Shown here: positions 673 through 27,400 of the stretch, one piece after another
Position numbering within the stretch: the first letter of the stretch is position 1
Layout of the letters: each line of letters begins with the position of its first letter
Source: Diadema setosum
Lineage: Eukaryota > Echinodermata > Echinoidea > Diadematoida > Diadematidae
Assembly: GCF_964275005.1 (NCBI RefSeq)
Contig: NC_092704.1
Location: 11,658,871-11,722,870, forward strand
Direction: 5' to 3'
Length of the DNA: 64,000 nucleotides
The notes under the pieces: model-generated
What the model was told of the DNA's origin: nothing
Seen by the model: the letters and a program-made list of their open reading frames with translations, nothing else
Database searches by the model: none
Made by a program: the position numbers and the translations under genes

Positions 673-2279
673 CCATTGCTGTAGTCTGAGCAGGGGTAGT
701 AGTAGAAAGAGTTGTGGTCTCCTCCTTCCTAGTAGTACCCATCGGAGTTGTTGTGGTAACAGCTGTGGTGGTAGCTTCAGTTACTGTAGTGGGTTTCGAC
801 GTGCTGGTAGGTACACTTGTAGTGACAACGGTTGTGACTACTGTTGTTTCCATGCTCGTAGCTGATTAATGAAAGAAAAAGAACACCGAGAATCCAAGAT
901 ATGAAAGGAACGTTACAGAATGTAACTTGTGAATTTGTTGCTAAAAAGTTGAGTGCACGGTTAAGTACCAGAAGTAACCAGCGGGCAGTATGTATAGACT
1001 ATGAACTTATCAATTCAATAACATATAACTAATCTCTTTTTTTCTGTCTCTGAATTGAGAGCAGAGGAAATTTCAAATGTAATAGACCGTGGAATATCAG
1101 CAACAACGGGGACATTCAACTCGATATATTATAGATCGCATAAGAGAACAAGAGAGATGAGAAAGTAGGAATATAGGAACCCAGAATAAAAGGAAACGAA
1201 ATTACCTGTCTCAATACATCCTCTGAATGTCACCGTTAACTGCGAATCTGCCACGTTGTAGTCATCTGGAAGGGTGATGTCAAAATAAACTTCATTCAAA
1301 CCAGTCAAAGGTTCAAACTCGTACATTCCTGAAGGCTGATCTTCTCCGGGTTCAGCTGTAAATTGGCGTTCAACATCTCCATCGCTCGACGGCGGGACAC
1401 CAATTGTGACAGTATTGGGAGGCGAGCCATTCGTTGTGGTTATGCTGACGGCTGATACCTTAATCGTCACTTCGGAGGTGTCATCCGTTGATTTGACAAT
1501 GACTCTTACTTTCCTATTGGAAGTAGGTTCCGTCCAAAGGTTTGTTTCGACGTTGTCCAGTAAAACTCTTAATTTAGTATCAGGGTCCTCGCCATCCAGC
1601 GGTTTTCTGCAATAACCTGGAAAGTAAAAGAAAATAATTTGTAGCGTAAAACTGTTTGGGAAACAGAAAACCGTGGACTGGTACACAGAGTTACCAACAT
1701 TTGTATTTATACGTTTGTCTAGTTTAGCAAACTGGCTCGTTTGATGTGGTGTAGCAGGAAAGTACATGATGGAACAGGTTATGTTAACGCGGAAAACTTG
1801 TCTGACTGCCTTCTAATCAAATGAAATCCTTCAGGTTTAGAGTCTTGGGACACAAGTCCGACAAAAATGGAAGTGAAAAAGTACCTGGCGTAGTAGATTC
1901 CGGCCTTTCTGTAGTGATCGAAGTAACAGTTGTCTGAGTTGTAGTTGTTGCTTCAGGAGTGGCAGTAGTTTCCTCAACTACTGCTGTTGTTTGCTCTGTT
2001 CCTGGAGCAGTAGTCGTTGTCGCTCGCGTTCGCGACCTTGTTGTGACTTCTGTTAAAAAAAGAAAACGACACGCATGTATCTGTCACTCAAAGTTTATGA
2101 CAGTTGAGAAAAACATTTTGAAGACAATACCTATAGCGAAGAATAGCCGAAACCAGTTTGATCTTAAAGTAATTATTATTTAGTGATAACCGATTTTCTT
2201 TCTTACTACACGTTAATTCAAAAAGGTTACAAATACAACGCAGACTTAGACCTACCTGACTGACCCAGAGTTGTCGTTT
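673..2279 (-). CDS. Left array unit L1, four-exon cassette
   Basis: In transcription order: microexon 2256-2279 (24 nt, residues ETTTLGQS), exon B 1885-2049 (165 nt, Thr-rich, opening EVTTRSRTR), exon C 1206-1616 (411 nt) and exon D 673-861 (189 nt, Thr-rich). All borders are GT-AG and phase 1. Exon C encodes a 137-residue domain opening GYCRKPLDG, passing through NLWTEP and ending VTFRGCIET. It has one Cys near each end and an NGS N-glycosylation sequon. It is beta-rich by pattern and I do not recognise its family. B and D are typical O-glycosylation substrates. This is the last unit visible before the window edge, and I could find no difference from L2 by eye. Confidence 0.9.
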
Positions 2280-5200
2280 CTGTAAATGTTGAGAGAGAAA
2301 AAAAGAGAACATTCTAGTTATGGATCGATTACAGTCGCATCAGACAGAGCTGAAATATTATATTGAAATACAAATTAAGTACTTTCCATGACTTAGGTGA
2401 TGATTTATTGTTTTGCATATCTTAATGTTCAGAAATTCAAGATGTAATTTCAAAAACAGTGTCCTCGCTAATGAATGTAAGGTTTGGCATCAATACACTG
2501 CTAAAAAAACAATAACCAAAAAACAAAGTTTAGCGTCTTGTCACTTGATCTGGTCAAGAGAGAGATTCCTGCTTCGAGTCATGTTTTACTTTACTGGACT
2601 GTGTTATTGAAATAAAATTTGGGCATTAATGCTTGGTAGCTTGGAAATCGTTGGAAATTCTTGAAGAGCCTGTACAGTGAAGTTGTGTCATATTAAGTCT
2701 GTTTTTGTTTGTGTGTTTGTTTGTTCTCTTCTTTTTGGTATTGAATCTAGAACGTATTCTACAAGATTAAATGTTGAAGATATCCCGTTTAAACAAGGAG
2801 TTATGTTTTGGTCATCTGGACTATATTGAAAGATGTGAAGGTTATATTTGTTTGTCGGTTTGCAATTCGTTTGATTTGTCGAAAATCCATCACTGTGAAG
2901 AAGGTGTTACATCCATTTTGTTCAATTGGCATTGAAGCTAAAATGATTTCACGATTTTTTTTTTTCGTAGAAAGCCCATTAATTCAAATATAAAAGAACA
3001 ACTACAAGGCTGTACCCATTGCTGTAGTCTGAGCAGGGGTAGTAGTAGAAAGAGTTGTGGTCTCCTCCTTCCTAGTAGTACCCATCGGAGTTGTTGTGGT
3101 AACAGCTGTGGTGGTAGCTTCAGTTACTGTAGTGGGTTTCGACGTGCTGGTAGGTACACTTGTAGTGACAACGGTTGTGACTACTGTTGTTTCCATGCTC
3201 GTAGCTGATTAATGAAAGAAAAAGAACACCGAGAATCCAAGATATGAAAGGAACGTTACAGAATGTAACTTGTGAATTTGTTGCTAAAAAGTTGAGTGCA
3301 CGGTTAAGTACCAGAAGTAACCAGCGGGCAGTATGTATAGACTATGAACTTATCAATTCAATAACATATAACTAATCTCTTTTTTTCTGTCTCTGAATTG
3401 AGAGCAGAGGAAATTTCAAATGTAATAGACCGTGGAATATCAGCAACAACGGGGACATTCAACTCGATATATTATAGATCGCATAAGAGAACAAGAGAGA
3501 TGAGAAAGTAGGAATATAGGAACCCAGAATAAAAGGAAACGAAATTACCTGTCTCAATACATCCTCTGAATGTCACCGTTAACTGCGAATCTGCCACGTT
3601 GTAGTCATCTGGAAGGGTGATGTCAAAATAAACTTCATTCAAACCAGTCAAAGGTTCAAACTCGTACATTCCTGAAGGCTGATCTTCTCCGGGTTCAGCT
3701 GTAAATTGGCGTTCAACATCTCCATCGCTCGACGGCGGGACACCAATTGTGACAGTATTGGGAGGCGAGCCATTCGTTGTGGTTATGCTGACGGCTGATA
3801 CCTTAATCGTCACTTCGGAGGTGTCATCCGTTGATTTGACAATGACTCTTACTTTCCTATTGGAAGTAGGTTCCGTCCAAAGGTTTGTTTCGACGTTGTC
3901 CAGTAAAACTCTTAATTTAGTATCAGGGTCCTCGCCATCCAGCGGTTTTCTGCAATAACCTGGAAAGTAAAAGAAAATAATTTGTAGCGTAAAACTGTTT
4001 GGGAAACAGAAAACCGTGGACTGGTACACAGAGTTACCAACATTTGTATTTATACGTTTGTCTAGTTTAGCAAACTGGCTCGTTTGATGTGGTGTAGCAG
4101 GAAAGTACATGATGGAACAGGTTATGTTAACGCGGAAAACTTGTCTGACTGCCTTCTAATCAAATGAAATCCTTCAGGTTTAGAGTCTTGGGACACAAGT
4201 CCGACAAAAATGGAAGTGAAAAAGTACCTGGCGTAGTAGATTCCGGCCTTTCTGTAGTGATCGAAGTAACAGTTGTCTGAGTTGTAGTTGTTGCTTCAGG
4301 AGTGGCAGTAGTTTCCTCAACTACTGCTGTTGTTTGCTCTGTTCCTGGAGCAGTAGTCGTTGTCGCTCGCGTTCGCGACCTTGTTGTGACTTCTGTTAAA
4401 AAAAGAAAACGACACGCATGTATCTGTCACTCAAAGTTTATGACAGTTGAGAAAAACATTTTGAAGACAATACCTATAGCGAAGAATAGCCGAAACCAGT
4501 TTGATCTTAAAGTAATTATTATTTAGTGATAACCGATTTTCTTTCTTACTACACGTTAATTCAAAAAGGTTACAAATACAACGCAGACTTAGACCTACCT
4601 GACTGACCCAGAGTTGTCGTTTCTGTAAATGTTGAGAGAGAAAAAAAGAGAACATTCTAGTTATGGATCGATTACAGTCGCATCAGACAGAGCTGAAATA
4701 TTATATTGAAATACAAATTAAGTACTTTCCATGACTTAGGTGATGATTTATTGTTTTGCATATCTTAATGTTCAGAAATTCAAGATGTAATTTCAAAAAC
4801 AGTGTCCTCGCTAATGAATGTAAGGTTTGGCATCAATACACTGCTAAAAAAACAATAACCAAAAAACAAAGTTTAGCGTCTTGTCACTTGATCTGGTCAA
4901 GAGAGAGATTCCTGCTTCGAGTCATGTTTTACTTTACTGGACTGTGTTATTGAAATAAAATTTGGGCATTAATGCTTGGTAGCTTGGAAATCGTTGGAAA
5001 TTCTTGAAGAGCCTGTACAGTGAAGTTGTGTCATATTAAGTCTGTTTTTGTTTGTGTGTTTGTTTGTTCTCTTCTTTTTGGTATTGAATCTAGAACGTAT
5101 TCTACAAGATTAAATGTTGAAGATATCCCGTTTAAACAAGGAGTCATGTTTTGGTTATCTGGACTATATTGAAAGATGTGAAGGTTATATTTGTTTGTCG

Positions 5201-8200
5201 GTTTGCAATTCGTTTGATTTGTCGAAAATCCATCACTGTGAAGGTGTTACATCCATTTTGTTCAATTGGCATTGAAGCTAAAATGATTTCACGATTTTTT
5301 TTTTCGTAGAAAGCCCATTAATTCAAATATAAAAGAACAACTACAAGGCTGTACCCATTGCTGTAGTCTGAGCAGGGGTAGTAGTAGAAAGAGTTGTGGT
5401 CTCCTCCTTCCTAGTAGTACCCATCGGAGTTGTTGTGGTAACAGCTGTGGTGGTAGCTTCAGTTACTGTAGTGGGTTTCGACGTGCTGGTAGGTACACTT
5501 GTAGTGACAACGGTTGTGACTACTGTTGTTTCCATGCTTGTAGCTGATTAATGAAAGAAAAAGAACACCGGGAATCCAAGATATGAAAGGAACGTTACAG
5601 AATGTAACTTGTGAATTTGTTGCTAAAAAGTTGAGTGCACGGTTAAGTACCAGAAGTAACCAGCGGGCAGTATGTATAGACTATGAACTTATCAATTCAA
5701 TAACATACAACTAATCTCTTTTTTTCTGTCTCTGAACTGAGAGCACAGGAAATTTCAAATGTAATAGACCGTGGAATATCAGCATCAACGGGGACATTCA
5801 ACTCGATATATTATAGATCGCATAAGAGAACAAGAGAGATGAGAAAGTAGGAATATAGGAACCCAGAATAAAAGGAAACGAAATTACCTGTCTCAATACA
5901 TCCTCTGAATGTCACCGTCAACTGCGAATCTGCCACGTTGTAGTCATCTGGAAGGGTGATGTCAAAATAAACTTCATTCAAACCAGTCAAAGGTTCAAAC
6001 TCGTACATTCCTGAAGGCTGATCTTCTCCGGGTTCAGCTGTAAATTGGCGTTCAACATCTCCATCGCTCGACGGCGGGACACCAATTGTGACAGTATTGG
6101 GAGGCGAGCCATTCGTTGTGGTTATGCTGACGGCTGATACCTTAATCGTCACTTCGGAGGTGTCATCCGTTGATTTGACAATGACTCTTACTTTCCTATT
6201 GGAAGTAGGTTCCGTCCAAAGGTTTGTTTCGACGTTGTCCAGTAAAACTCTTAATTTAGTATCAGGGTCCTCGCCATCCAGCGGTTTTCTGCAATAACCT
6301 GGAAAGTAAAAGAAAATAATTTGTAGCGTAAAACTGTTTGGGAAACAGAAAACCGTGGACTGGTACACAGAGTTACCAACATTTGTATTTATACGTTTGT
6401 CTAGTTTAGCAAACTGGCTCGTTTGATGTGGTGTAGCAGGAAAGTACATGATGGAACAGGTTATGTTAACGCGGAAAACTTGTCTGACTGCCTTCTAATC
6501 AAATGAAATCCTTCAGGTTTAGAGTCTTGGGACACAAGTCCGACAAAAATGGAAGTGAAAAAGTACCTGGCGTAGTAGATTCCGGCCTTTCTGTAGTGAT
6601 CGAAGTAACAGTTGTCTGAGTTGTAGTTGTTGCTTCAGGAGTGGCAGTAGTTTCCTCAACTACTGCTGTTGTTTGCTCTGTTCCTGGAGCAGTAGTCGTT
6701 GTCGCTCGCGTTCGCGACCTTGTTGTGACTTCTGTTAAAAAAAGAAAACGACACGCATGTATCTGTCACTCAAAGTTTATGACAGTTGAGAAAAACATTT
6801 TGAAGACAATACCTATAGCGAAGAATAGCCGAAACCAGTTTGATCTTAAAGTAATTATTATTTAGTGATAACCGATTTTCTTTCTTACTACACGTTAATT
6901 CAAAAAGGTTACAAATACAACGCAGACTTAGACCTACCTGACTGACCCAGAGTTGTCGTTTCTGTAAATGTTGAGAGAGAAAAAAAGAGAACATTCTAGT
7001 TATGGATCGATTACAGTCGCATCAGACAGAGCTGAAATATTATATTGAAATACAAATTAAGTACTTTCCATGACTTAGGTGATGATTTATTGTTTTGCAT
7101 ATCTTAATGTTCAGAAATTCAAGATGTAATTTCAAAAACAGTGTCCTCGCTAATGAATGTAAGGTTTGGCATCAATACACTGCTAAAAAAACAATAACCA
7201 AAAAACAAAGTTTAGCGTCTTGTCACTTGATCTGGTCAAGAGAGAGATTCCTGCTTCGAGTCATGTTTTACTTTACTGGACTGTGTTATTGAAATAAAAT
7301 TTGGGCATTAATGCTTGGTAGCTTGGAAATCGTTGGAAATTCTTGAAGAGCCTGTACAGTGAAGTTGTGTCATATTAAGTCTGTTTTTGTTTGTGTGTTT
7401 GTTTGTTCTCTTCTTTTTGGTATTGAATCTAGAACGTATTCTACAAGATTAAATGTTGAAGATATCCCGTTTAAACAAGGAGTTATGTTTTGGTTATCTG
7501 GACTATATTGAAAGATGTGAAGGTTATATTTGTTTGTCGGTTTGCAATTCGTTTGATTTGTCGAAAATCCATCACTGTGAAGGTGTTACATCCATTTTGT
7601 TCAATTGGCATTGAAGCTAAAATGATTTCACGATTTTTTTTTTCGTAGAAAGCCCATTAATTCAAATATAAAAGAACAACTACAAGGCTGTACCCATTGC
7701 TGTAGTCTGAGCAGGGGTAGTAGTAGAAAGAGTTGTGGTCTCCTCCTTCCTAGTAGTACCCATCGGAGTTGTTGTGGTAACAGCTGTGGTGGTAGCTTCA
7801 GTTACTGTAGTGGGTTTCGACGTGCTGGTAGGTACACTTGTAGTGACAACGGTTGTGACTACTGTTGTTTCCATGCTTGTAGCTGATTAATGAAAGAAAA
7901 AGAACACCGGGAATCCAAGATATGAAAGGAACGTTACAGAATGTAACTTGTGAATTTGTTGCTAAAAAGTTGAGTGCACGGTTAAGTACCAGAAGTAACC
8001 AGCGGGCAGTATGTATAGACTATGAACTTATCAATTCAATAACATACAACTAATCTCTTTTTTTCTGTCTCTGAACTGAGAGCACAGGAAATTTCAAATG
8101 TAATAGACCGTGGAATATCAGCATCAACGGGGACATTCAACTCGATATATTATAGATCGCATAAGAGAACAAGAGAGATGAGAAAGTAGGAATATAGGAA

Positions 8201-11200
8201 CCCAGAATAAAAGGAAACGAAATTACCTGTCTCAATACATCCTCTGAATGTCACCGTCAACTGCGAATCTGCCACGTTGTAGTCATCTGGAAGGGTGATG
8301 TCAAAATAAACTTCATTCAAACCAGTCAAAGGTTCAAACTCGTACATTCCTGAAGGCTGATCTTCTCCGGGTTCAGCTGTAAATTGGCGTTCAACATCTC
8401 CATCGCTCGACGGCGGGACACCAATTGTGACAGTATTGGGAGGCGAGCCATTCGTTGTGGTTATGCTGACGGCTGATACCTTAATCGTCACTTCGGAGGT
8501 GTCATCCGTTGATTTGACAATGACTCTTACTTTCCTATTGGAAGTAGGTTCCGTCCAAAGGTTTGTTTCGACGTTGTCCAGTAAAACTCTTAATTTAGTA
8601 TCAGGGTCCTCGCCATCCAGCGGTTTTCTGCAATAACCTGGAAAGTAAAAGAAAATAATTTGTAGCGTAAAACTGTTTGGGAAACAGAAAACCGTGGACT
8701 GGTACACAGAGTTACCAACATTTGTATTTATACGTTTGTCTAGTTTAGCAAACTGGCTCGTTTGATGTGGTGTAGCAGGAAAGTACATGATGGAACAGGT
8801 TATGTTAACGCGGAAAACTTGTCTGACTGCCTTCTAATCAAATGAAATCCTTCAGGTTTAGAGTCTTGGGACACAAGTCCGACAAAAATGGAAGTGAAAA
8901 AGTACCTGGCGTAGTAGATTCCGGCCTTTCTGTAGTGATCGAAGTAACAGTTGTCTGAGTTGTAGTTGTTGCTTCAGGAGTGGCAGTAGTTTCCTCAACT
9001 ACTGCTGTTGTTTGCTCTGTTCCTGGAGCAGTAGTCGTTGTCGCTCGCGTTCGCGACCTTGTTGTGACTTCTGTTAAAAAAAGAAAACGACACGCATGTA
9101 TCTGTCACTCAAAGTTTATGACAGTTGAGAAAAACATTTTGAAGACAATACCTATAGCGAAGAATAGCCGAAACCAGTTTGATCTTAAAGTAATTATTAT
9201 TTAGTGATAACCGATTTTCTTTCTTACTACACGTTAATTCAAAAAGGTTACAAATACAACGCAGACTTAGACCTACCTGACTGACCCAGAGTTGTCGTTT
9301 CTGTAAATGTTGAGAGAGAAAAAAAGAGAACATTCTAGTTATGGATCGATTACAGTCGCATCAGACAGAGCTGAAATATTATATTGAAATACAAATTAAG
9401 TACTTTCCATGACTTAGGTGATGATTTATTGTTTTGCATATCTTAATGTTCAGAAATTCAAGATGTAATTTCAAAAACAGTGTCCTCGCTAATGAATGTA
9501 AGGTTTGGCATCAATACACTGCTAAAAAAACAATAACCAAAAAACAAAGTTTAGCGTCTTGTCACTTGATCTGGTCAAGAGAGAGATTCCTGCTTCGAGT
9601 CATGTTTTACTTTACTGGACTGTGTTATTGAAATAAAATTTGGGCATTAATGCTTGGTAGCTTGGAAATCGTTGGAAATTCTTGAAGAGCCTGTACAGTG
9701 AAGTTGTGTCATATTAAGTCTGTTTTTGTTTGTGTGTTTGTTTGTTCTCTTCTTTTTGGTATTGAATCTAGAACGTATTCTACAAGATTAAATGTTGAAG
9801 ATATCCCGTTTAAACAAGGAGTTATGTATTGGTCATCTGGACTATATTGAAAGATGTGAAGGTTATATTTGTTTGTCGGTTTGCAATTCGTTTGATTTGT
9901 CGAAAATCCATCACTGTGAAGAAGGTGTTACATCCATTTTGTTCAATTGGCATTGAAGCTAAAATGATTTCACGATTTTTTTTTTTTCGTAGAAAGCCCA
10001 TTAATTCAAATATAAAAGAACAACTACAAGGCTGTACCCATTGCTGTAGTCTGAGCAGGGGTAGTAGTAGAAAGAGTTGTGGTCTCCTCCTTCCTAGTAG
10101 TACCCATCGGAGTTGTTGTGGTAACAGCTGTGGTGGTAGCTTCAGTTACTGTAGTGGGTTTCGACGTGCTGGTAGGTACACTTGTAGTGACAACGGTTGT
10201 GACTACTGTTGTTTCCATGCTCGTAGCTGATTAATGAAAGAAAAAGAACACCGAGAATCCAAGATATGAAAGGAACGTTACAGAATGTAACTTGTGAATT
10301 TGTTGCTAAAAAGTTGAGTGCACGGTTAAGTACCAGAAGTAACCAGCGGGCAGTATGTATAGACTATGAACTTATCAATTCAATAACATATAACTAATCT
10401 CTTTTTTTCTGTCTCTGAATTGAGAGCAGAGGAAATTTCAAATGTAATAGACCGTGGAATATCAGCAACAACGGGGACATTCAACTCGATATATTATAGA
10501 TCGCATAAGAGAACAAGAGAGATGAGAAAGTAGGAATATAGGAACCCAGAATAAAAGGAAACGAAATTACCTGTCTCAATACATCCTCTGAATGTCACCG
10601 TCAACTGCGAATCTGCCACGTTGTAGTCATCTGGAAGGGTGATGTCAAAATAAACTTCATTCAAACCAGTCAAAGGTTCAAACTCGTACATTCCTGAAGG
10701 CTGATCTTCTCCGGGTTCAGCTGTAAATTGGCGTTCAACATCTCCATCGCTCGACGGCGGGACACCAATTGTGACAGTATTGGGAGGCGAGCCATTCGTT
10801 GTGGTTATGCTGACGGCTGATACCTTAATCGTCACTTCGGAGGTGTCATCCGTTGATTTGACAATGACTCTTACTTTCCTATTGGAAGTAGGTTCCGTCC
10901 AAAGGTTTGTTTCGACGTTGTCCAGTAAAACTCTTAATTTAGTATCAGGGTCCTCGCCATCCAGCGGTTTTCTGCAATAACCTGGAAAGTAAAAGAAAAT
11001 AATTTGTAGCGTAAAACTGTTTGGGAAACAGAAAACCGTGGACTGGTACACAGAGTTACCAACATTTGTATTTATACGCTTGTCTAGTTTAGCAAACTGG
11101 CTCGTTTGATGTGGTGTAGCAGGAAAGTACATGATGGAACAGGTTATGTTAACGCGGAAAACTGCCTTCTAATCAAATGAAATCCTTCAGGTTTAGAGTC

Positions 11201-14200
11201 TTGGGACACAAGTCCGACAAAAATGGAAGTGAAAAAGTACCTGGCGTAGTAGATTCCTGCCTTTCCGTAGTGATCGATGTAACAGTTGTCTGAGTTGTAG
11301 TTGTTGCTTCAGGAGTGGCAGTAGTTTCCTCAACTACTGCTGTTGTTTGCTCTGTTCCTGGAGCAGTAGTCGTTGTCGCTCGCGTTCGCGACCTTGTTGT
11401 GACTTCTGTTAAAAAAAGAAAACGACACGCATGTATCTGTCACTCAATGTTTATGACAGTTGAGAAAAACATTTTGAAGACAATACCTATAGCGAAGAAT
11501 AGCCGAAACCAGTTTGATCTTAAAGTAATTATTATTTAGTGATAACCGATTTTCTTTCTTACTACACGTTAATTCAAAAAGGTTACAAATACAACGCAGA
11601 CTTAGACCTACCTGACTGACCCAGAGTTGTCGTTTCTGTAAATGTTGAGAGAGAAAAAAAGAGAACATTCTAGTTATGGATCGATTACAGTCGCATCAGA
11701 CAGAGCTGAAATATTATATTGAAATACAAATTAAGTACTTTCCATGACTTAGGTGATGAGTTATTGTTTTGCATATCTTAATGTTCAGAAATTCAAGATG
11801 TAATTTCAAAAACAGTGTCCTCGCTAATGAATGTAAGGTTTGGCATCAATACACTGCTAAAAAAACAATAACCAAAAAACAAAGTTTAGCGTCTTGTCAC
11901 TTGATCTGGTCAAGAGAGAGATTCCTGCTTCGAGTCATGTTTTACTTTACTGGACTGTGTTATTGAAATAAAATTTGGGCATTAATGCTTGGTAGCTTGG
12001 AAATCGTTGGAAATTCTTGAAGAGCCTGTACAGTGAAGTTGTGTCATATTAAGTCTGTTTTTGTTTGTGTGTTTGTTTGTTCTCTTCTTTTTGGTATTGA
12101 ATCTAGAACGTATTCTACAAGATTAAATGTTGAAGATATCCCGTTTAAACAAGGAGTTATGTTTTGGTCATCTGGACTATATTGAAAGATGTGAAGGTTA
12201 TATTTGTTTGTCGGTTTGCAATTCGTTTGATTTGTCGAAAATCCATCACTGTGAAGAAGGTGTTACATCCATTTTGTTCAATTGGCATTGAAGCTAAAAT
12301 GATTTCACGATTTTTTTTTTTTCGTAGAAAGCCCATTAATTCAAATATAAAAGAACAACTACAAGGCTGTACCCATTGCTGTAGTCTGAGCAGGGGTAGT
12401 AGTAGAAAGAGTTGTGGTCTCCTCCTTCCTAGTAGTACCCATCGGAGTTGTTGTGGTAACAGCTGTGGTGGTAGCTTCAGTTACTGTAGTGGGTTTCGAC
12501 GTGCTGGTAGGTACACTTGTAGTGACAACGGTTGTGACTACTGTTGTTTCCATGCTCGTAGCTGATTAATGAAAGAAAAAGAACACCGGGAATCCAAGAT
12601 ATGAAAGGAACGTTACAGAATGTAACTTGTGAATTTGTTGCTAAAAAGTTGAGTGCACGGTTAAGTACCAGAAGTAACCAGCGGGCAGTATGTATAGACT
12701 ATGAACTTGTCAATTTAATAACATACAACTAATCTCTTTTTTTCTGTCTCTGAATTGAGAGCACAGGAAATTTCAAATGTAATAGACCGTGGAATATCAG
12801 CAACAACGGGGACATTCAACTCGATATATTATAGATCGCATAAGAGAACAAGAGAGATGAGAAAGTAGGAATATAGGAACCCAGAATAAAAGGAAACGAA
12901 ATTACCTGTCTCAATACATCCTCTGAATGTCACCGTCAACTGCGAATCTGCCACGTTGTAGTCATCTGGAAGGGTGATGTCAAAATAAACTTCATTCAAA
13001 CCAGTCAAAGGTTCAAACTCGTACATTCCTGAAGGCTGATCTTCTCCGGGTTCAGCTGTAAATTGGCGTTCAACATCTCCATCGCTCGACGGCGGGACAC
13101 CAATTGTGACAGTATTGGGAGGCGAGCCATTCGTTGTGGTTATGCTGACGGCTGATACCTTAATCGTCACTTCGGAGGTGTCATCCGTTGATTTGACAAT
13201 GACTCTTACTTTCCTATTGGAAGTAGGTTCCGTCCAAAGGTTTGTTTCGACGTTGTCCAGTAAAACTCTTAATTTAGTATCAGGGTCCTCGCCATCCAGC
13301 GGTTTTCTGCAATAACCTGGAAAGTAAAAGAAAATAATTTGTAGCGTAAAACTGTTTGGGAAACAGAAAACCGTGGACTGGTACACAGAGTTACCAACAT
13401 TTGTATTTATACGCTTGTCTAGTTTAGCAAACTGGCTCGTTTGATGTGGTGTAGCAGGAAAGTACATGATGGAACAGGTTATGTTAACGCGGAAAACTGC
13501 CTTCTAATCAAATGAAATCCTTCAGGTTTAGAGTCTTGGGACACAAGTCCGACAAAAATGGAAGTGAAAAAGTACCTGGCGTAGTAGATTCCTGCCTTTC
13601 CGTAGTGATCGATGTAACAGTTGTCTGAGTTGTAGTTGTTGCTTCAGGAGTGGCAGTAGTTTCCTCAACTACTGCTGTTGTTTGCTCTGTTCCTGGAGCA
13701 GTAGTCGTTGTCGCTCGCGTTCGCGACCTTGTTGTGACTTCTGTTAAAAAAAGAAAACGACACGCATGTATCTGTCACTCAATGTTTATGACAGTTGAGA
13801 AAAACATTTTGAAGACAATACCTATAGCGAAGAATAGCCGAAACCAGTTTGATCTTAAAGTAATTATTATTTAGTGATAACCGATTTTCTTTCTTACTAC
13901 ACGTTAATTCAAAAAGGTTACAAATACAACGCAGACTTAGACCTACCTGACTGACCCAGAGTTGTCGTTTCTGTAAATGTTGAGAGAGAAAAAAAGAGAA
14001 CATTCTAGTTATGGATCGATTACAGTCGCATCAGACAGAGCTGAAATATTATATTGAAATACAAATTAAGTACTTTCCATGACTTAGGTGATGAGTTATT
14101 GTTTTGCATATCTTAATGTTCAGAAATTCAAGATGTAATTTCAAAAACAGTGTCCTCGCTAATGAATGTAAGGTTTGGCATCAATACACTGCTAAAAAAA

Positions 14201-17200
14201 CAATAACCAAAAAACAAAGTTTAGCGTCTTGTCACTTGATCTGGTCAAGAGAGAGATTCCTGCTTCGAGTCATGTTTTACTTTACTGGACTGTGTTATTG
14301 AAATAAAATTTGGGCATTAATGCTTGGTAGCTTGGAAATCGTTGGAAATTCTTGAAGAGCCTGTACAGTGAAGTTGTGTCATATTAAGTCTGTTTTTGTT
14401 TGTGTGTTTGTTTGTTCTCTTCTTTTTGGTATTGAATCTAGAACGTATTCTACAAGATTAAATGTTGAAGATATCCCGTTTAAACAAGGAGTTATGTTTT
14501 GGTCATCTGGACTATATTGAAAGATGTGAAGGTTATATTTGTTTGTCGGTTTGCAATTCGTTTGATTTGTCGAAAATCCATCACTGTGAAGAAGGTGTTA
14601 CATCCATTTTGTTCAATTGGCATTGAAGCTAAAATGATTTCACGATTTTTTTTTTTCGTAGAAAGCCCATTAATTCAAATATAAAAGAACAACTACAAGG
14701 CTGTACCCATTGCTGTAGTCTGAGCAGGGGTAATAGTAGAAAGAGTTGTGGTCTCCTCCTTCCTAGTAGTACCCATCGGAGTTGTTGTGGTAACAGCTGT
14801 GGTGGTAGCTTCAGTTACTGTAGTGGGTTTCGACGTGCTGGTAGGTACACTTGTAGTGACAACGGTTGTGACTACTGTTGTTTCCATGCTCGTAGCTGAT
14901 TAATGAAAGAAAAAGAACACCGGGAATCCAAGATATGAAAGGAACGTTACAGAATGTAACTTGTGAATTTGTTGCTAAAAAGTTGAGTGCACGGTTAAGT
15001 ACCAGAAGTAACCAGCGGGCAGTATGTATAGACTATGAACTTATCAATTCAATAACATACAACTAATCTCTTTTTTTCTGTCTCTGAATTGAGAGCACAG
15101 GAAATTTCAAATGTAATAGACCGTGGAATATCAGCAACAACGGGGACATTCAACTCGATATATTATAGATCGCATAAGAGAACAAGAGAGATGAGAAAGT
15201 AGGAATATAGGAACCCAGAATAAAAGGAAACGAAATTACCTGTCTCAATACATCCTCTGAATGTCACCGTCAACTGCGAATCTGCCACGTTGTAGTCATC
15301 TGGAAGGGTGATGTCAAAATAAACTTCATTCAAACCAGTCAAAGGTTCAAACTCGTACATTCCTGAAGGCTGATCTTCTCCGGGTTCAGCTGTAAATTGG
15401 CGTTCAACATCTCCATCGCTCGACGGCGGGACACCAATTGTGACAGTATTGGGAGGCGAGCCATTCGTTGTGGTTATGCTGACGGCTGATACCTTAATCG
15501 TCACTTCGGAGGTGTCATCCGTTGATTTGACAATGACTCTTACTTTCCTATTGGAAGTAGGTTCCGTCCAAAGGTTTGTTTCGACGTTGTCCAGTAAAAC
15601 TCTTAATTTAGTATCAGGGTCCTCGCCATCCAGCGGTTTTCTGCAATAACCTGGAAAGTAAAAGAAAATAATTTGTAGCGTAAAACTGTTTGGGAAACAG
15701 AAAACCGTGGACTGGTACACAGAGTTACCAACATTTGTATTTATACGCTTGTCTAGTTTAGCAAACTGGCTCGTTTGATGTGGTGTAGCAGGAAAGTACA
15801 TGATGGAACAGGTTATGTTAACGCGGAAAACTGCCTTCTAATCAAATGAAATCCTTCAGGTTTAGAGTCTTGGGACACAAGTCCGACAAAAATGGAAGTG
15901 AAAAAGTACCTGGCGTAGTAGATTCCTGCCTTTCCGTAGTGATCGATGTAACAGTTGTCTGAGTTGTAGTTGTTGCTTCAGGAGTGGCAGTAGTTTCCTC
16001 AACTACTGCTGTTGTTTGCTCTGTTCCTGGAGCAGCAGTCGTTGTCGCTCGCGTTCGCGACCTTGTTGTGACTTCTGTTAAAAAAAGAAAACGACACGCA
16101 TGTATCTGTCACTCAATGTTTATGACAGTTGAGAAAAACATTTTGACAATACCTATAGCGAAGAATAGCCGAAACCAGTTTGATCTTAAAGTAATTATTA
16201 TTTAGTGATAACCGATTTTCTTTCTTACTACACGTTAATTCAAAAAGGTTACAAATACAACGCAGACTTAGACCTACCTGACTGACCCAGAGTTGTCGTT
16301 TCTGTAAATGTTGAGAGAGAAAAAAAGAGAACATTCTAGTTATGGATCGATTACAGTCGCATCAGACAGAGCTGAAATATTATATTGAAATACAAATTAA
16401 GTACTTTCCATGACTTAGGTGATGATTTATTGTTTTGCATATCTTAATGTTCAGAAATTCAAGATGTAATTTCAAAAACAGTGTCCTCGCTAATGAATGT
16501 AAGGTTTGGCATCAATACACTGCTAAAAAAACATAACCAAAAAAACAAAGTTTAGCGTCTTGTCACTTGATCTGGTCAAGAGAGAGATTCTTGCTTCGAG
16601 TCATGTTTTACTTTACTGGACTGTGTTATTGAAATAAAATTTGGGCATTAATGCTTGGTAGCTTGGAAATCGTTGGAAATTCTTGAAGAGCCTGTACAGT
16701 GAAGTTGTGTCATATTAAGTCTGTTTTTGTTTGTGTGTTTGTTTGTTCTCTTCTTTTTGGTATTGAATCTAGAACGTATTCTACAAGATTAAATGTAGAA
16801 GATATCCCGTTTAAACAAGGAGTTATGTTTTGGTCATCTGGACTATATTGAAAGATGTGAAGGTTATATTTGTTTGTCGGTTTGCAATTCGTTTGATTTG
16901 TCGAAAATCCATCACTGTGAAGAAGGTGTTACATCCATTTTGTTCAATTGGCATTGAAGCTAAAATGATTTCACGATTTTTTTTTTCGTAGAAAGCCCAT
17001 TAATTCAAATATAAAAGAACAACTACAAGGCTGTACCCATTGCTGTAGTCTGAGCAGGGGTAGTAGTAGAAAGAGTTGTGGTCTCCTCCTTCCTAGTAGT
17101 ACCCATCGGAGTTGTTGTGGTAACAGCTGTGGTGGTAGCTTCAGTTACTGTAGTGGGTTTCGACGTGCTGGTAGGTACACTTGTAGTGACAACGGTTGTG

Positions 17201-20200
17201 ACTACTGTTGTTTCCATGCTCGTAGCTGATTAATGAAAGAAAAAGAACACCGGGAATCCAAGATATGAAAGGAACGTTACAGAATGTAACTTGTGAATTT
17301 GTTGCTAAAAAGTTGAGTGCACGGTTAAGTACAAGAAGTAACCAGTGGGCAGTATGTATAGACTATGAACTTATCAATTCAATAACATACAACTAATCTT
17401 TTTTTTTGTCTGTCTCTGAATTGAGAGCACAGGAAATTTCAAATGTAATAGACCGTGGAATATCAGCAACAACGGGGACATTCAACTCGATATATTATAG
17501 ATCGCATAAGAGAACAAGAGAAATGAGAAAGTAATGATAATGATAATGAATAACATTTATATAGCGCTTAATACTGATGTTTCTAAGCGCATCAAATCGG
17601 GGAAAAATAATATATATAACGTAAAAACAAAATACAGCATTATGTACATATTATGATAACGACAGCAACAACAACAACAGCAAGATTAAGGTTGTGTAAA
17701 CAGATGAGTTTTCAACAATGACTTAAACCTATCAACATTTTCAGCGTTACGAATATAAAAAGGGAGTTCATTCCAAAGAAGTGGGGAAATAACTGAAAAG
17801 GCCCTATCACCATAACGTGTACAGGTGCGGGGACCACGTGATAATTGGAGAGCGGAGGAAGAACGAAGAGAACGGGTTGAAGTGGAGGAGCGGAAGGAAA
17901 TTAGATCTTTAAGATAAGATGGGGCAAGATTATTACATATCTTGTAAACAATAAGGAGGATTTTAAAAGTGATACGTTGATGGATGGGGAGCCAGTGGAG
18001 GGATTGGAGAACTGGAGTAATGTGGTCAGATCTTTTTGTAAGGGTCACAAGCCTAGCAGCTGTATTTTGAATTCTTTGAAGTGGTGCAGTACTTGAAGCA
18101 GGGAGACCAACAAGAAGGGAATTGCAGTAGTCAAGATGAGAGGAAACAAATGCGTGAATGAGACGTTCTGTGGAAGACTGATCCAATAATTTACGTATTT
18201 TACCAATTTTACAAATACCCCAAGCAGCAGAACGACATGAATTCTTAATATGTTGTTGAAAGTTCAGATGCTTATCTACAATAACTCCGAGATCTCTGAC
18301 GGACTGAGAGATGGGGATAGTACTATCTTCAAAGGAAAATTCTGTTAGAGAGCTACCCCGCCTGAACTGAGAATGAACATACAAAAATTCCGATTTAACA
18401 CAATTCAATTTCAAATAATTATCGTGAGACCATTGCTTGATATCATCAACGCATCTACTAAGTTTGCAGAGTGCTTCGACTTGGGTATTTGGTTGTATGA
18501 TTATGTAGATTTGAGTATCGTCGGCATACATAACATGTAAAATATCGTTATGAGAGTTGATTACTGAAGACAGAGGGGCTGTGTATAGAAGAAATAGTAA
18601 AGGACCAACCACAGACCCCTGGGGGACACCATGTCTAAGAGGGAACGACTGAGAAAATGCACCGTTCACAGTAACCATCTGGTGGCGGTCGTGTAAGTAA
18701 GATGCAATCCATCTCAAGACTGTTCCCGTTAGACCAAAATTAGTCTCCAATCTGTTAAGGAGAATTTCATGACTGATAGTATCAAACGCAGCAGAATAAT
18801 CTAAAAGCAGAAGAGCAACTTCATGGCCTTTGTCTACTGCTAAGAGGAGGTCATTGAGTACCTTCAATAAGGCGGTTTCGGTGGAGTGGAAGTGTCTGTA
18901 GGCAGACTGATTACTAGGAAACAAGTAGGAATATAGGAACCCAGAATAAAAGGAAACGAAATTACCTGTCTCAATACATCCTCTGAATGTCACCGTCAAC
19001 TGCGAATCTGCCACGTTGTAGTCATCAGGAAGGGTGATGTCAAAATAAACTTCATTCAAACCAGTCAAAGGTTCAAACTCGTACATTCCTGAAGGCTGAT
19101 CTTCTCCGGGTTCAGCTGTAAATTGGCGTTCAACATCTCCATCGCTCGACGGCGGGACACCAATTGTGACAGTATTGGGAGGCGAGCCATTCGTTGTGGT
19201 TATGCTGACGGCTGATACCTTAATCGTCACTTCGGAGGTGTCATCCGTTGATTTGACAATGACTCTTACTTTCCTATTGGAAGTAGGTTCCGTCCAAAGG
19301 TTTGTTTCGACGTTGTCCAGTAAAACTCTTAATTTAGTTTCAGGGTCCTCGCCATCCAGTGGTTTTCTACAATAACCTGGAAAGTAAAAGAAAAGAATTT
19401 GTAGCTTAAAACTGTTTGGGAAACAGAATACCATCGACTCGCACACAGAGGTATCAATATTTGTATTTCCATCGGAAGTACGTTCCGTCCAAAGATTTGT
19501 TTCATTGTCGTCAAATAAAACGTGTAATTTAGTATCAAGATTCTCACAATCCAGTGGTTCTCTGCAAGCGCCTGGTGATTAAAAGATATGTCATGGATGT
19601 TGACATTTATGGCCACTAATATTGAAGGAAAAGTGTTTGGTAGTTCTGCTATCTTGTCCGCCAATCCAGTGGTTCTCTGCAAGCGCCTGGTGATTAAAAG
19701 ATATGTCATGGATGTTGACATTTATGGCCACTAATATTGAAGGAAAAGTATTTGGTAGTTCTGCTATCTAAGAGTTGTCCGCCAATTTAGTGGTTCTCTG
19801 CAAGCGCCTGGTGATTAAAAGATATGTCATGTCATGAGTTGTCCGCCAAAAAGATCCCCCTAGTAATACACGAGGTGTTGCTGTTTGAAAGAAAACTGTC
19901 CAAATAATTCACCCAAAGATTGCTGAATTTCAATTCTGAAAATACAAAATCTTTCTCGCGCGAGAGAGGGATACCCCCTCCCATACCCTCTCCCTTTCGG
20001 TCATTTCTACCTAGTACACTTTTCGATTGACAGATTTCCGAATATCTCATCAAAACTTTGCGCCAGATCTGTCACTTCCGTCCAAAAAATGCAAAAGTTC
20101 CGTCGGGTGGGTGGGAAGGGATATGTAGATACTTTCAGTTAACCCTATTTTCCACCGCTTGGTTTCCCTCCATAGATTTAGTGCACTTCTGGGACCGACA

Positions 20201-21430: not shown

Positions 21431-24400
21431 TTACATAGACAAATACATGCACATACATACATGTGCACATACTACTATGTGTAAATAAGGTGACTTTCAA
21501 CATTCCGGCATAGAAGACAGCGTAGGTAATAGAAAATATTGCCATTTACGTAAGTATGTCTTTGTTTATGGTGATCATAATACTTGCACGCTTTAGTCCG
21601 CCATGCGACACAGCGTGTTTTTACTCTCCGGGTCTTCACTGACCTATACAAGTACCTATACGTATAAAAGCATCCTTTTAGTCTTCCTTCGTCAATTTCT
21701 TCCAATATTTTTGAATTTCTGTGACCAATATTTGTTAGCATGTGACATTCGCCTTTTCCCCACGACTAGACCTACGCACAAATCGAGGATTTATGTCTCA
21801 GAGCGTTTGCGTGACCATAGTACTGCAATATTTAAAAATACAGAAACACTGTTGATCGTTCGAGAGTTTGTCAAAGATTGCAGTCATTCCTTGCTTTAGA
21901 GTTTTTTTCCCCGTGATTACACTGAATGCTATCGACTTCATTACCCAATATCATTACAGCCGATATGAATGACATGCTTTCAAGAAATTTCAAGTGCATG
22001 GTCTGACTTGTGTATATTTATACTATCATAATCACTATCATCATACTTTTCTATCAAAATTTATTACTTTATCATGAACCGAGATACATCCGTGACATCC
22101 AAATGTGACAACTTGGCAGTCAGAAGCTATTCTGCTTACCGACAATGCAGCCCTTGAAATCAAAGGTAAAGTAGACAGCGCTTGCTGTATTGTCCAGCGC
22201 GGTGACAGTAATCCAGAATTCCTCAATGTCTGTCACTTGCATCATGGTTTCAGGAAGCTCCACGTTCCAGGGACTACTGCTATCGCCACTCTTCTGTAGC
22301 TGGAAGTCCAGTGAACCCTGTCAATGACAAGAGCAACAACACCACCACCCACAATTCGTTAAGTCCATAACTGTAAAGAGTTTGGTCGGAAAACAGGCTA
22401 AAGGCCACCGCTACTATACGACTTTCGATCGCACGACTGACCGACTTCGGATCTGAAATTAACAAGCGTGTATATTCTAAGAATATTCTGATTTATTTCA
22501 GATCTTCACTGCAAAAAGTCCGGTGTTAAATATGAAACACCGAGCTGGTGTTAAATTTCCGGTGCTCATTCATGGTGTTAGATTAACACCTCCGGGTGTC
22601 ATTTCAAAATTTAAAATTGTTTTTTGAATAGTTTCTTAGTTGCTGCACTTCTTTTTAATTTTGAACTTCAACAAGACGATAGAGAATTTTCCGATAAAGT
22701 ACTTGATTTTTGAAAAAATCTGTAAATACATTTACACCACAGTAACACCAGTTGGTGTGGTCCCCTATTGAAGCTGGACGGGTGTTATACCATTGAAATT
22801 AACACCAGCCACATTGTCAAATTAACACCACGAATTGCCAGGCGAACACTTTTTAACACCGTCACAATATATTTTCTACACCTGTGGGTGTGGTCCTCTA
22901 TTGAAGTTTGATCGGTGTTAGATTTAACACCCATGGTGTTAAATCTAACACCGATGTTTTTACAGTGTAATGTCGGTCAGTCATGCTACCGAAGGTCGTG
23001 TACTGTGCGGTTGAAGTGTCATTGTCAAACAAATTAAAGTAGGTCCACCATCATTTCAAGCAGAATAAACCTTTCCAGCGACACCTCACTTGTTGCATAC
23101 CCAATTATTTTCTTGAAGTTGTGATTGGAAATACCCTATGTTTTCTTATATTTTTCTTTTATTGTTTTAGCAGCTTTGATCTCAGATTTTTCATATTAAC
23201 ATGAATCAACCTCTTCTTATGAGGGGTTGATTGTCGTCACGAGTTGCAGGGCTGATGAAATGCGTCAAAGCGCTCCGCAGTACTGGAATCTTTGTTTGCA
23301 CCCGCCTGATCTGCGGAGTGATATGTGTTACACAATGATGGTATGTATTCATTGTTACCATGGAGAATACTGCTATCAGACAGAAGTCACACTGCACTTT
23401 ATGGGATGTGCATATGTGACCGCGCGTCACAAAACCAGCAAAACGTCGCACGCCCTGATTGTACGTGAGGAGTGGAAAAGGTGAAACGGGTCAACCTAGT
23501 AAATCTTGACTTTTTCATATTATCTGAAAGAGCAATTATTCTATCATAAAACAAATGGGAAATTGTGTTTTAGCAGTTTTTGTAGAACACATTTTTTTTT
23601 TTTTTTTTTGTAGGATAGTGTGATCAGGTATGTCTTCGAGGCACCTTTTAATTTCTCAGAAACCCTTTACACACTCTTTACTCTCAAATCTTATAATTTT
23701 TGAAGGGATGGTGCTACTGCTTTGAAATTCATGGAATGAATCCATGGATAGAATGTGTTAATAGAGCATTCTCAATTTTCATGATAATCGGATAATTCCT
23801 TCACTGTTGTTTATATGGACTTTTACACCCTGTTTTTGCCCCATTCATTGCAAAGAGCACGGCTTGGTAAAATTAAGTGATTGGATAGACCCTATACTTA
23901 AGAGCCTCTTTTTTCATTACTCAGTTTTCCAGAGAGTGTGCTTTCTTCTCAAGATTTAGATAGATCAGGAAAGTCCATTTCAATCGAGTTATACATCAGT
24001 CAAAGCTTAAAGTGTGCTCTTTTAGAATCTGCCCCTAGCTAAATATCCATGACTGGCTACTCATTGTCTGTTTTGTGGTGCTGAGTCACATATACAAATG
24101 GTGTAGCAAAAAAAGAATGTACTAAAAGAAAAAGGTGGTACGTACTGGAGGAATTAATCAATTAAGTTAAGATGTACCGAGAGAATTTGAATGCCCCTAC
24201 ACGTGTGTATTCGTACAAAGTAGGCACTTTCCCAAATAAATAAGTCCAATTCTTTCTACAGGTTAACCCTAAAAGGGCCGGGCGGGGGGAGAGTTGAATC
24301 AACCCCCCTCGACATTTTTCGCGACTTCTCCGCCGTGCGAAATTTTTTGACTGCGCCGTTTGCTGACTTTTTACTTTCAAGTCACGCGCATCTGTTGACA

Positions 24401-27400
24401 CCATTTTCGCGAAAATCGTGCATATCGTTACGACGCTGCATAACGTTTTATACATGCCTGTGAGACCAAAAATGGCTCAAAAAACGTGATTTTGTGTATA
24501 AAGTCTGTGCATATGGAGTTTTTTCTTCTTATTTATAAAGATATGATTATTTTCACTTCCATAGGCTGAAACTAATCAATTTTAGGATAATTATGCTGGA
24601 AATAGGTTCAGTCATCAATTTTACCGAAAAAAAAAATGATAAAACAAAAGGTCAAAAAAACCAAAAAAAAAAATACATAAGAAATTCATAAAACAATAGA
24701 ATACATAAGAAATTGATTTCGATACCAATCTTTTTTTAAAGTACATTGTTAGGAATGCTAAGAATAATGTTTTCACCAAAAATTAGGATTCTAGGAGCTT
24801 GCTTTAATTTCTGATTTAGAGCAAAATGTATGATTTTATGCATATATTAGCATAATTAATCACTATGGTGAAAATTTCTATTTCTTTTTGTATAGTTTGG
24901 TAGATTACGCCACAGGTAATGCACGTGCCAAATTTCATGACGATTGCGCGATCAACGACAGAGATCTCGGGAGGGGGGGGGGGTTTGAATCAACTCCTCC
25001 CCGGCCACAGGACCCAAAAAAGCCCGGCCTGGTTAGGGTTAATCATTTCTATTGTTTATTGTTTCATAGGGTCTGTTTTGTAACTACATTTAAGCATACT
25101 GTTCCAGCAAAAGCCTGGGCCCTGCATTTGTTTCAAGTGGAGGGAAGTACATGTGGTAGAGTCAAAGGGAAGACAAGTTTTGAGAGCAGATGCAAAAAAG
25201 AATGATGCAGGGAAGAATATCTTACTGATGTGCTCATTAAGAAAAACTTAAATATTTGTATAACAACAAACGGTTCTAGGACAAGTACCCCTGGGCTATT
25301 ACCCCAGACCCTTCTACCGACCCAAACTCTAATCCTAATCCTGAACCTAATCCTAAGCCTTACCAAATTTCTAAGGCAACAAGAACCATTTTTCTTTTGC
25401 ATCCTTTTCTTGCACCAAGCGGCAGAGCGTATTGACATAAAGTCACATGTATCCTTGTACATTTAGGAAAGCATTATCACGTTCGTGGTTGTGAACATCG
25501 AGACAAATATATAGACACTCAAGAACACCGGCCAAACTCACGTCGGCACGCTGTACGGGGTTCAGTGATTGCTGTCCAGATCGTCGATACTGCAGTCGTA
25601 TCGTGACGCCCGTGATCGAGTTTCTTTGATCGCCGACGACCACTGACGACACTGTGACAGGTGTGCTAAAGGTGACCATTAGACTCATCGGAAGCTGGCC
25701 AGTGGGGTTCAGTATGTTCCATACGTTGCCCGACATGACTAAACCAACTTCGTTAACGGGCGTCATGACGATGCTGACGTCACTGATGTCACTGAGAGGT
25801 TCGTCGCAGATGCCTGGCAGTCGCAAGAGAATAGAAAGAGAAAAAAAAAAGAAATGCTGATTGTGTAATCTTAACCCAAGCGACGCAACGTCATCCAAAA
25901 CAATTCCAGCGTGAAAATCGTACTATCTCATTTACATTAATTGTTCTCTGAGTACTCTTATTCACTGATCAGGAACCCATTACCTATATAGACAAGTGAC
26001 AAATTTGATTCACAGATTGCATTCTCATAATTTTTACGTCTTATGTTTATCTCTACTGTTGTATTTCAAAATATCGACGAGATAGAGATGACGAAGATGT
26101 GGTGTTTGTGAAGTAATACGAACAACGGTTGTAATCATCACAATAGACATAGTGAATACGATTATTACGACAATATGGATGATAAGAGTAAAAGCAATGA
26201 AAACAAAATTCAGACTCTCGTAATGTTCAGTCTAGCGACAGCAGCGGTAAACTTACCTGGTGTTGTCAGTCGTGTAGTGGTGGCGATGGTTGTGGCCGCA
26301 GTAGTCGGCATTGTTGTTGCAGATGTTGTAGTGGGCATAGGCGTGATAGTTACACGTCTGGTCATTGTTGTTGGAATGACCGTTGTTGTACCAACTGAAG
26401 GTAGTGTTGTCGGTACCACTGATGTTTTCACTGCAGGTGTTGTTGTTTCAAATACCCTTGTAGTTGCAGCGGTTGTTGGTATTCCTCTTGTTGTAATGAT
26501 TTCTGGTGTCGTTTCAACTCTTGGGAACGTTGTTTCAATTGTCTTTGTAGTTTTAACCGTTGGCGATGTGGTTAGTACTGCCGTTGTAGTTTTCATTTCG
26601 GGCGTTGGCGTTGTAAAAGCCGTTGTAGTTACACCCACCGTTCCTTCCGTTGTTCCTAGTGTTGTGGTTGGAATATGCTTTGTCGCCTTTTTGGACTCGG
26701 TGGGGTTGGCCGGTCTTGGTCGGGTTGTGCTGGCTGGAGATGCAGTTGTAGATAAAACAGTAGATGGAACTAACGTGGAAGACTGGAACAGCTTAGTAGT
26801 CGGCGAGATAGTTGTTGTCTTGCCAACCGTTTCAGTGGATGGAACTGTCGTGATCTTTGTTAGTATGGGTGACGTCACCGAAGGGATTCTGGAAGTTTCT
26901 CGGGCGCGTGTGGTTGGTAGCGGTGATGTAACAGGTGCCAGGGTAGTCGTCATTTTTTCTTCAGTGACTTTCTCCGTTACTGTTGTCAAAACATTCGACG
27001 TTGGGGTTGCGGCCGTAGACACCGAGACCCGAGTTGTAACACTTGTCACCTTCGGGCCCTCAGTTGTCGTGACAGAGTGAGTAGAAGTGGTTGGTGCCAA
27101 AGTTGTAGCCAGTTTTGTCGTAACGGGTAATTTTGTTGTCTCGACTGTAGTGACAGTGGTAGTCATCGTGGTAGTTGGTCCCTCCGTTGAATGCTCTGTC
27201 GTAGCCTTGGTTGTAATGGTCTCTGTGGTGGTGGTAACCTCTTCTCTGCATTCGCAGCACTTGCCTTCCGTGTTGTCCAAAACTAGTCCATCCTAATTCA
27301 AAGACATAATCAAGTACATTGTAATATATATTCAAGAATGGATGGAACTGTACTTCTATTTGGAACGTCGACCGTCATTTGAATATTCTAAAATACGGAA

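Follow-up and report, generated by a model that had tools for sequence, protein, structure and literature searches.

Exon C, a cysteine-bounded exon repeated in tandem on contig NC_092704.1 (C20) of the echinoid Diadema setosum, very probably codes for a discoidin (F5/8 type C; FA58C, PF00754) domain that has diverged strongly, as judged from structural models and from a chain of sequence similarities leading to a canonical copy at the same locus. Most likely, it represents a diverged variant of a known domain and not a new family. We analyzed a stretch of 64,000 nucleotides, C20:11658871-11722870 (henceforth termed the window), in the context of its locus, which is read on the minus strand, and of the 912.7 Mb genome. 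The introns and the types of domain present are those of an animal. Unprefixed positions refer to the window and prefixed ones to contigs. The arrangement as a whole is probably best explained by diverged discoidin-type knots that were amplified together with threonine (Thr)-rich exons in a giant mucin-like protein, which they would cross-link.

Predicted fold and family assignment

At 1206-1616 (minus strand; copy 1, left array; tblastn, splice sites), exon C spans 411 bases, equal to 137 codons, and is flanked by phase-1 introns on either side. An initial annotation made from the letters alone had described an unrecognised, cysteine-bounded and beta-rich domain of about 137 residues with 17 copies and two divergent relatives in the window, and had hinted at a discoidin-like jelly roll. 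Its length is correct, and tblastn recovers all 17 full copies, 8 in the left and 9 in the right array, as well as both relatives (D1 and D2) where the annotation had them. Both boundary cysteines are kept in 17/17 distinct proteins encoded by the copies of the whole locus, and AlphaFold models of copies 9 and 7 are predicted to be all beta. In the structure comparison with F5/8-C that the annotation had proposed, F5/8C rows head the lists for both models, each aligned end to end (residue 1 to 135), and the predicted structures display the discoidin jelly-roll fold; one further structure comparison favours such a fold weakly. The ends of F5/8C domains are disulfide-bonded. Exon C is thus like F5/8 type C domains in its predicted end-to-end jelly roll, a cysteine at each end and a closing GC, and is linked to them stepwise via D2, D1 and the single-exon E relatives; it differs from them in being a single exon with no detectable PF00754 match and a sequence that has moved past direct recognition. 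The structural hint of the annotation is supported by both the models and the stepwise chain.

Sequence searches do fail to recognize the domain. Exon C, D1 and D2 gave no match above the cut-off in Pfam and NCBIfam, two exon C sequences searched against Pfam with E-values up to 10 returned no family at all, CysD (mucin WxxW) included, and the E relatives had no Pfam match. Sub-threshold hits to Laminin_B (E-value 0.069, D1) and LtfC (E-value 0.094, D2) were put down to chance or to a beta pattern in common. Searches of PDB sequences yielded only weak matches with no common theme, none of them convincing for exon C. CUB was not named among the rows shown in the structure comparisons, which excludes nothing. 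An alignment mixing exon C with single D1 and D2 exons was visibly wrong and was not used for folding.

Stepwise similarity to a canonical discoidin domain

A genome search with PF00754, in which 150 of 327 candidates were scored, yielded 148 matches. None of them coincides with exon C, D1, D2 or an E relative; one lies inside this locus. This match, F0, is a spliced canonical F5/8C domain at C20:11781113-11780811 joined to 11780234-11780091 (PF00754 E-value 2.3e-11, 44.4 bits). The two divergent relatives are real, strongly diverged and each encoded by two exons on the minus strand. D1 joins 25813-25542, which begins CDEPL, to 22317-22140, which ends FKGCIV (tblastn; phase-0 donor and acceptor read from the letters), and a genome search with D1 found no match other than D1 itself. 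D2 joins 45162-44921 to 44464-44323, the latter ending EVYGCQ (sequence reading, genome search); the CxxPL start that the annotation ascribed to the domain is present in D1, whereas D2 begins CYEPQEPL instead. Nor is D2 a solitary copy, being one of 22 first exons found in the genome search, all at this locus and mostly outside the window; outside the locus, D2 had just two matches, with E-values of 3.2 and 6.3. Four single-exon E copies (C20:11868680, 11863549, 11859969 and 11856528) and an E fragment (C20:11868110) lie outside the window. Across this large divergence, the relatives retain the two-cysteine frame.

Pairwise similarity was assessed by global alignment with 500 shuffles per pair. 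Comparisons with D2 used 21 spliced copies, the copy at C20:11824701 being left out for its weak second-exon match (E-value 0.31). No shuffle was as good as the real alignment in 68/68 pairs of E with exon C, 4/4 of D1 with E, 12/21 of D1 with D2, 3/21 of F0 with D2 and 1/17 of D1 with exon C; five or fewer shuffles were as good in 17/21 D1-D2, 10/21 F0-D2 and 11/17 D1-exon C pairs. Reversed-sequence controls gave nothing in four sets. The shuffle tests therefore point to a stepwise similarity, F0-D2-D1-E-exon C. F0, D1 and D2 further have phase 1 at both ends and one internal phase-0 intron each, located 46, 56 and 45 residues, respectively, before the closing cysteine; the single-exon state of exon C would probably have arisen through loss of the intron found in these relatives. 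Profile-profile comparisons were weak (exon C-D2 11 columns, exon C-D1 31, D1-D2 81), and a combined F0, D1 and D2 profile matched exon C with E-values of 0.017 or worse (set of 17), which we do not count as support.

Several observations weigh against the discoidin assignment. PF00754 matched none of the exon C (2), D1 (1), D2 (2) and E (2) sequences compared with it, and exon C is therefore not a PF00754 member by Pfam's rule. Shuffle tests were not significant for F0-exon C (17 pairs), F0-E (4 pairs) and E-D2 (21 pairs). Judged by these alignments, the weakest link in the putative chain is F0-D2, and for the D2 copy of the window 9/500 shuffles matched F0 equally well. An automatic alignment placed the introns of F0, D1 and D2 in separate columns (125, 111 and 134), and because of this difference the common intron is counted as support, not as proof.

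Further features were noted around the relatives. The D2 first exons, including that at 44921-45162, carry an acidic SGSGD-type linker that presumably recalls glycosaminoglycan attachment sites. The long D1 intron contains repeated GGTGTTA/TAACACC stretches at 22540-22960, possibly a mobile element. With E as genome query, additional candidates appeared at C20:12156734 (E-value 0.0025), C20:11939372 (0.0084) and C2:133144 (0.17). Because a VWD piece lies 5' of each on the same strand (C20:12165962, C20:11962854 and C2:142841), these three loci are suggested to be paralogous genes.

Exon C arrays and their cassettes

A whole-genome search detected at least 44 full exon C copies and one fragment, all within C20 11.629-11.762 Mb, repeat counts from this search being lower bounds; direct reading of the locus sequence likewise gave 44 full copies, 21 in the left and 23 in the right array. 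The window copies, all on the minus strand and located by tblastn and splice sites, continue in the left array after copy 1 with copies 2 to 6 at 3549-3959, 5888-6298, 8227-8637, 10571-10981 and 12906-13316, copy 7 (second AlphaFold model query) at 15240-15650, and copy 8, the most 5' there, at 18966-19376. The right array holds copy 9 (first model query) at 46207-46617 and copies 10 to 17 at 48267-48677, 50326-50736, 52389-52799, 54450-54860, 56509-56919, 58565-58975, 60621-61031 and 62682-63092.

Stop codons are absent from all 44 copies, the AG acceptor and G/GT donor are intact in 44/44, and the copies encode 17 distinct protein sequences. One left and one right copy compared with each other give a dN/dS of 0.31, with 27.3 synonymous changes and 32.7 others. 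The repeat unit measures about 2.06 or 2.34 kb. Of 42 consecutive pairs of units, 33 were compared and show 98.1-100% DNA identity (mean about 99.5%); the other nine were left out for a unit outside 1.9-2.5 kb. Owing to their open frames, intact splice sites, this dN/dS value and the near-identity of neighbours, the arrays appear to be coding sequence that is under constraint and was duplicated recently. The same high identity makes the exact copy number dependent on the assembly.

In the cassette of the right array, exon C is followed by two Thr-rich exons separated by a short one (ETTTLGQS), with all joins in phase 1. The first Thr-rich exon was found in 41/44 units, with the search pattern cutting 39 of these 41 at 41 residues and two reaching 63, and the second in 38/44; Thr makes up 45-50% of those portions of the exons on either side of exon C that were measured, to which these percentages are confined. 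Minus-strand examples from the open-frame and cassette reading are the frames holding the Thr-rich exon after (45534-45941) and before (46875-47219) exon C. A long Thr-rich (mucin-type) exon lies at 26257-27292 on the same strand, within the open frame 26210-27292, its ends set by splice-site letters.

The surroundings of copy 8 include mobile-element sequence. Open frame 17686-19578 (minus strand) runs from this copy into a reverse transcriptase (RVT_1 E-value 1.1e-24), so that a retrotransposon piece lies directly beyond the exon. A 115-base tandem repeat at 19547-19831 (2.4 copies) holds a truncated exon C start (CREPLDC...) and apparently represents broken-off exon pieces. A second reverse transcriptase fragment (RVT_1 E-value 6.9e-13) is located at 37474-38151 on the plus strand.

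Locus setting and protein class

On its 5' side, the locus contains VWD (E-value 1.6e-14), C8 (1.3e-18), TIL (2.9e-11) and LDLa (1.4e-6) exons, and further VWD pieces lie 5' of these at C20:11884691 and 11896598. The VWD-C8-TIL combination of gel-forming mucins and SCO-spondin-like polymers is thus present on the 5' side as read, and Ser/Thr/Pro-rich segments, also expected of such polymers, occur as well. On the 3' side, open frame C20:11615802-11615401 matches Cys_knot (E-value 2.7e-4) and DAN (9.3e-4), both below the Pfam cut-offs, and is probably a C-terminal cystine knot on this sequence evidence. Between the 5' VWD and the 3' knot lie E and D2 copies, cysteine-rich/TIL exons (including a TIL domain exon at 39936-40127, minus strand, Pfam TIL E-value 2.1e-7), F0, D1 and the two exon C arrays. 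All described modules occupy the minus strand of 11.615-11.897 Mb, and we infer that they form one joined gene. Its product would most likely be secreted, of giant size and of the SCO-spondin or gel-forming mucin class. Elsewhere in the genome, eleven VWD pieces spaced at exactly 3296 bases, each within an open frame of 311 residues, occupy C4:13848514-13882325 (plus strand) and thereby form a second VWD locus with a tandem array.

SCO-spondin is a giant protein that combines VWD, FA5/8C, LDLa, TIL and a C-terminal cystine knot, and its chick form is described with one FA5/8C and 27 TSR domains (PMC8487547). The locus shares VWD, FA5/8C, LDLa, TIL and, probably, the cystine knot with SCO-spondin; it differs in having many copies of its discoidin relatives, with Thr-rich exons placed between them. 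Among secreted echinoderm adhesives, Nectin contains repeated (six) discoidin domains and Sfp1 combines discoidin with VWD and C8; in contrast to the exon C arrays, tandem cassettes in which such domains alternate with mucin-type Thr-rich exons are described for neither in the excerpts available (PMC7037938, PMC10057474). Among the titles and opening parts of abstracts listed, we found none that describes an alternation of discoidin domains and Thr-rich mucin exons. The setting is unusual in its number of copies and in this alternation.

Proposed role and alternative explanations

CysD adopts a fold other than discoidin-type. Like the CysD domains of MUC2, MUC5AC and MUC5B, exon C is a folded module that recurs between Thr/Ser-rich mucin segments of a VWD protein; it is unlike them in its predicted discoidin-type fold, its two conserved cysteines and its number, with at least 44 copies plus relatives as opposed to nine CysD copies in MUC5AC and seven in MUC5B, counts given in a report that also describes homotypic contacts of CysD (PMC11933400). 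In the mechanism we propose, exon C would have been amplified together with its adjoining Thr-rich exons to give tandem arrays in a giant secreted protein, each cassette supplying a Thr-rich rod that presumably bears O-glycans and, after it, a single folded knot bounded by cysteines. Both secretion and glycosylation of the protein are presumed. The polymer ends would be joined through the VWD and cystine-knot regions, and the knots could offer many weak non-covalent binding sites for each other, for glycans or for matrix partners, thereby cross-linking the polymer. By analogy with CysD and SCO-spondin, knots placed between rods may hold the secreted gel together or to its surroundings. Such a cross-linking role is plausible, at a little under an even chance.

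A less likely account retains the discoidin-type fold and regards it as an inert spacer that interrupts the Thr-rich rods, limits glycosylation or stiffness and binds nothing. This would suit the near-identity of neighbouring units, since copy number may then drift with little consequence, and no ligand site was identified in exon C; the dN/dS of the left-right pair, the two-cysteine frame kept by the relatives over large divergence and the general nature of discoidin domains as binding modules all speak against a spacer. At the other end of the functional range, a self-cross-linking lectin-mucin, in which dozens of sugar-binding discoidin-type knots bind the protein's own O-glycans so that the gel holds, is rather improbable; if true, the number of knots would be tuned by tandem duplication.

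Turning to the fold itself, it is quite unlikely that exon C belongs to a different jelly-roll family of the galactose-binding-like kind (CBM, SUN or laminin-B type) and that its cysteine frame arose convergently and not by descent from F5/8C: F5/8C heads both structure lists with full model coverage, a canonical F5/8C domain sits at the same locus, and the phase-0 intron is common to it, D2 and D1. An unrelated new beta-sandwich family, a possibility left by the annotation, is marginally less likely still. It would accommodate the failed Pfam, NCBIfam and PDB sequence searches and the missing direct match of F0 to exon C or E, but is opposed by the structural matches to F5/8C and by the stepwise chain through E, D1 and D2 to F0. 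It is very improbable that the arrays lack working exons and reflect misassembly or a repeat in decay. The high identity of neighbours speaks for this reading in that it leaves the exact copy number uncertain; against it stand 44/44 open copies with intact splice sites, 17 distinct proteins and a dN/dS of 0.31 for one left-right pair.

Implications

The assignment of exon C as a diverged discoidin domain gives a name to a repeated domain overlooked by sequence searches, and D2, D1 and E, as intermediates, suggest how a discoidin domain can drift past recognition within one locus. The mucin-type genes that need long reads for their copy number are joined by a coding array of very large size and recent duplication. 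The arrays also suggest that, in this echinoid protein, a different fold occupies the place held by CysD in vertebrate gel-forming mucins.
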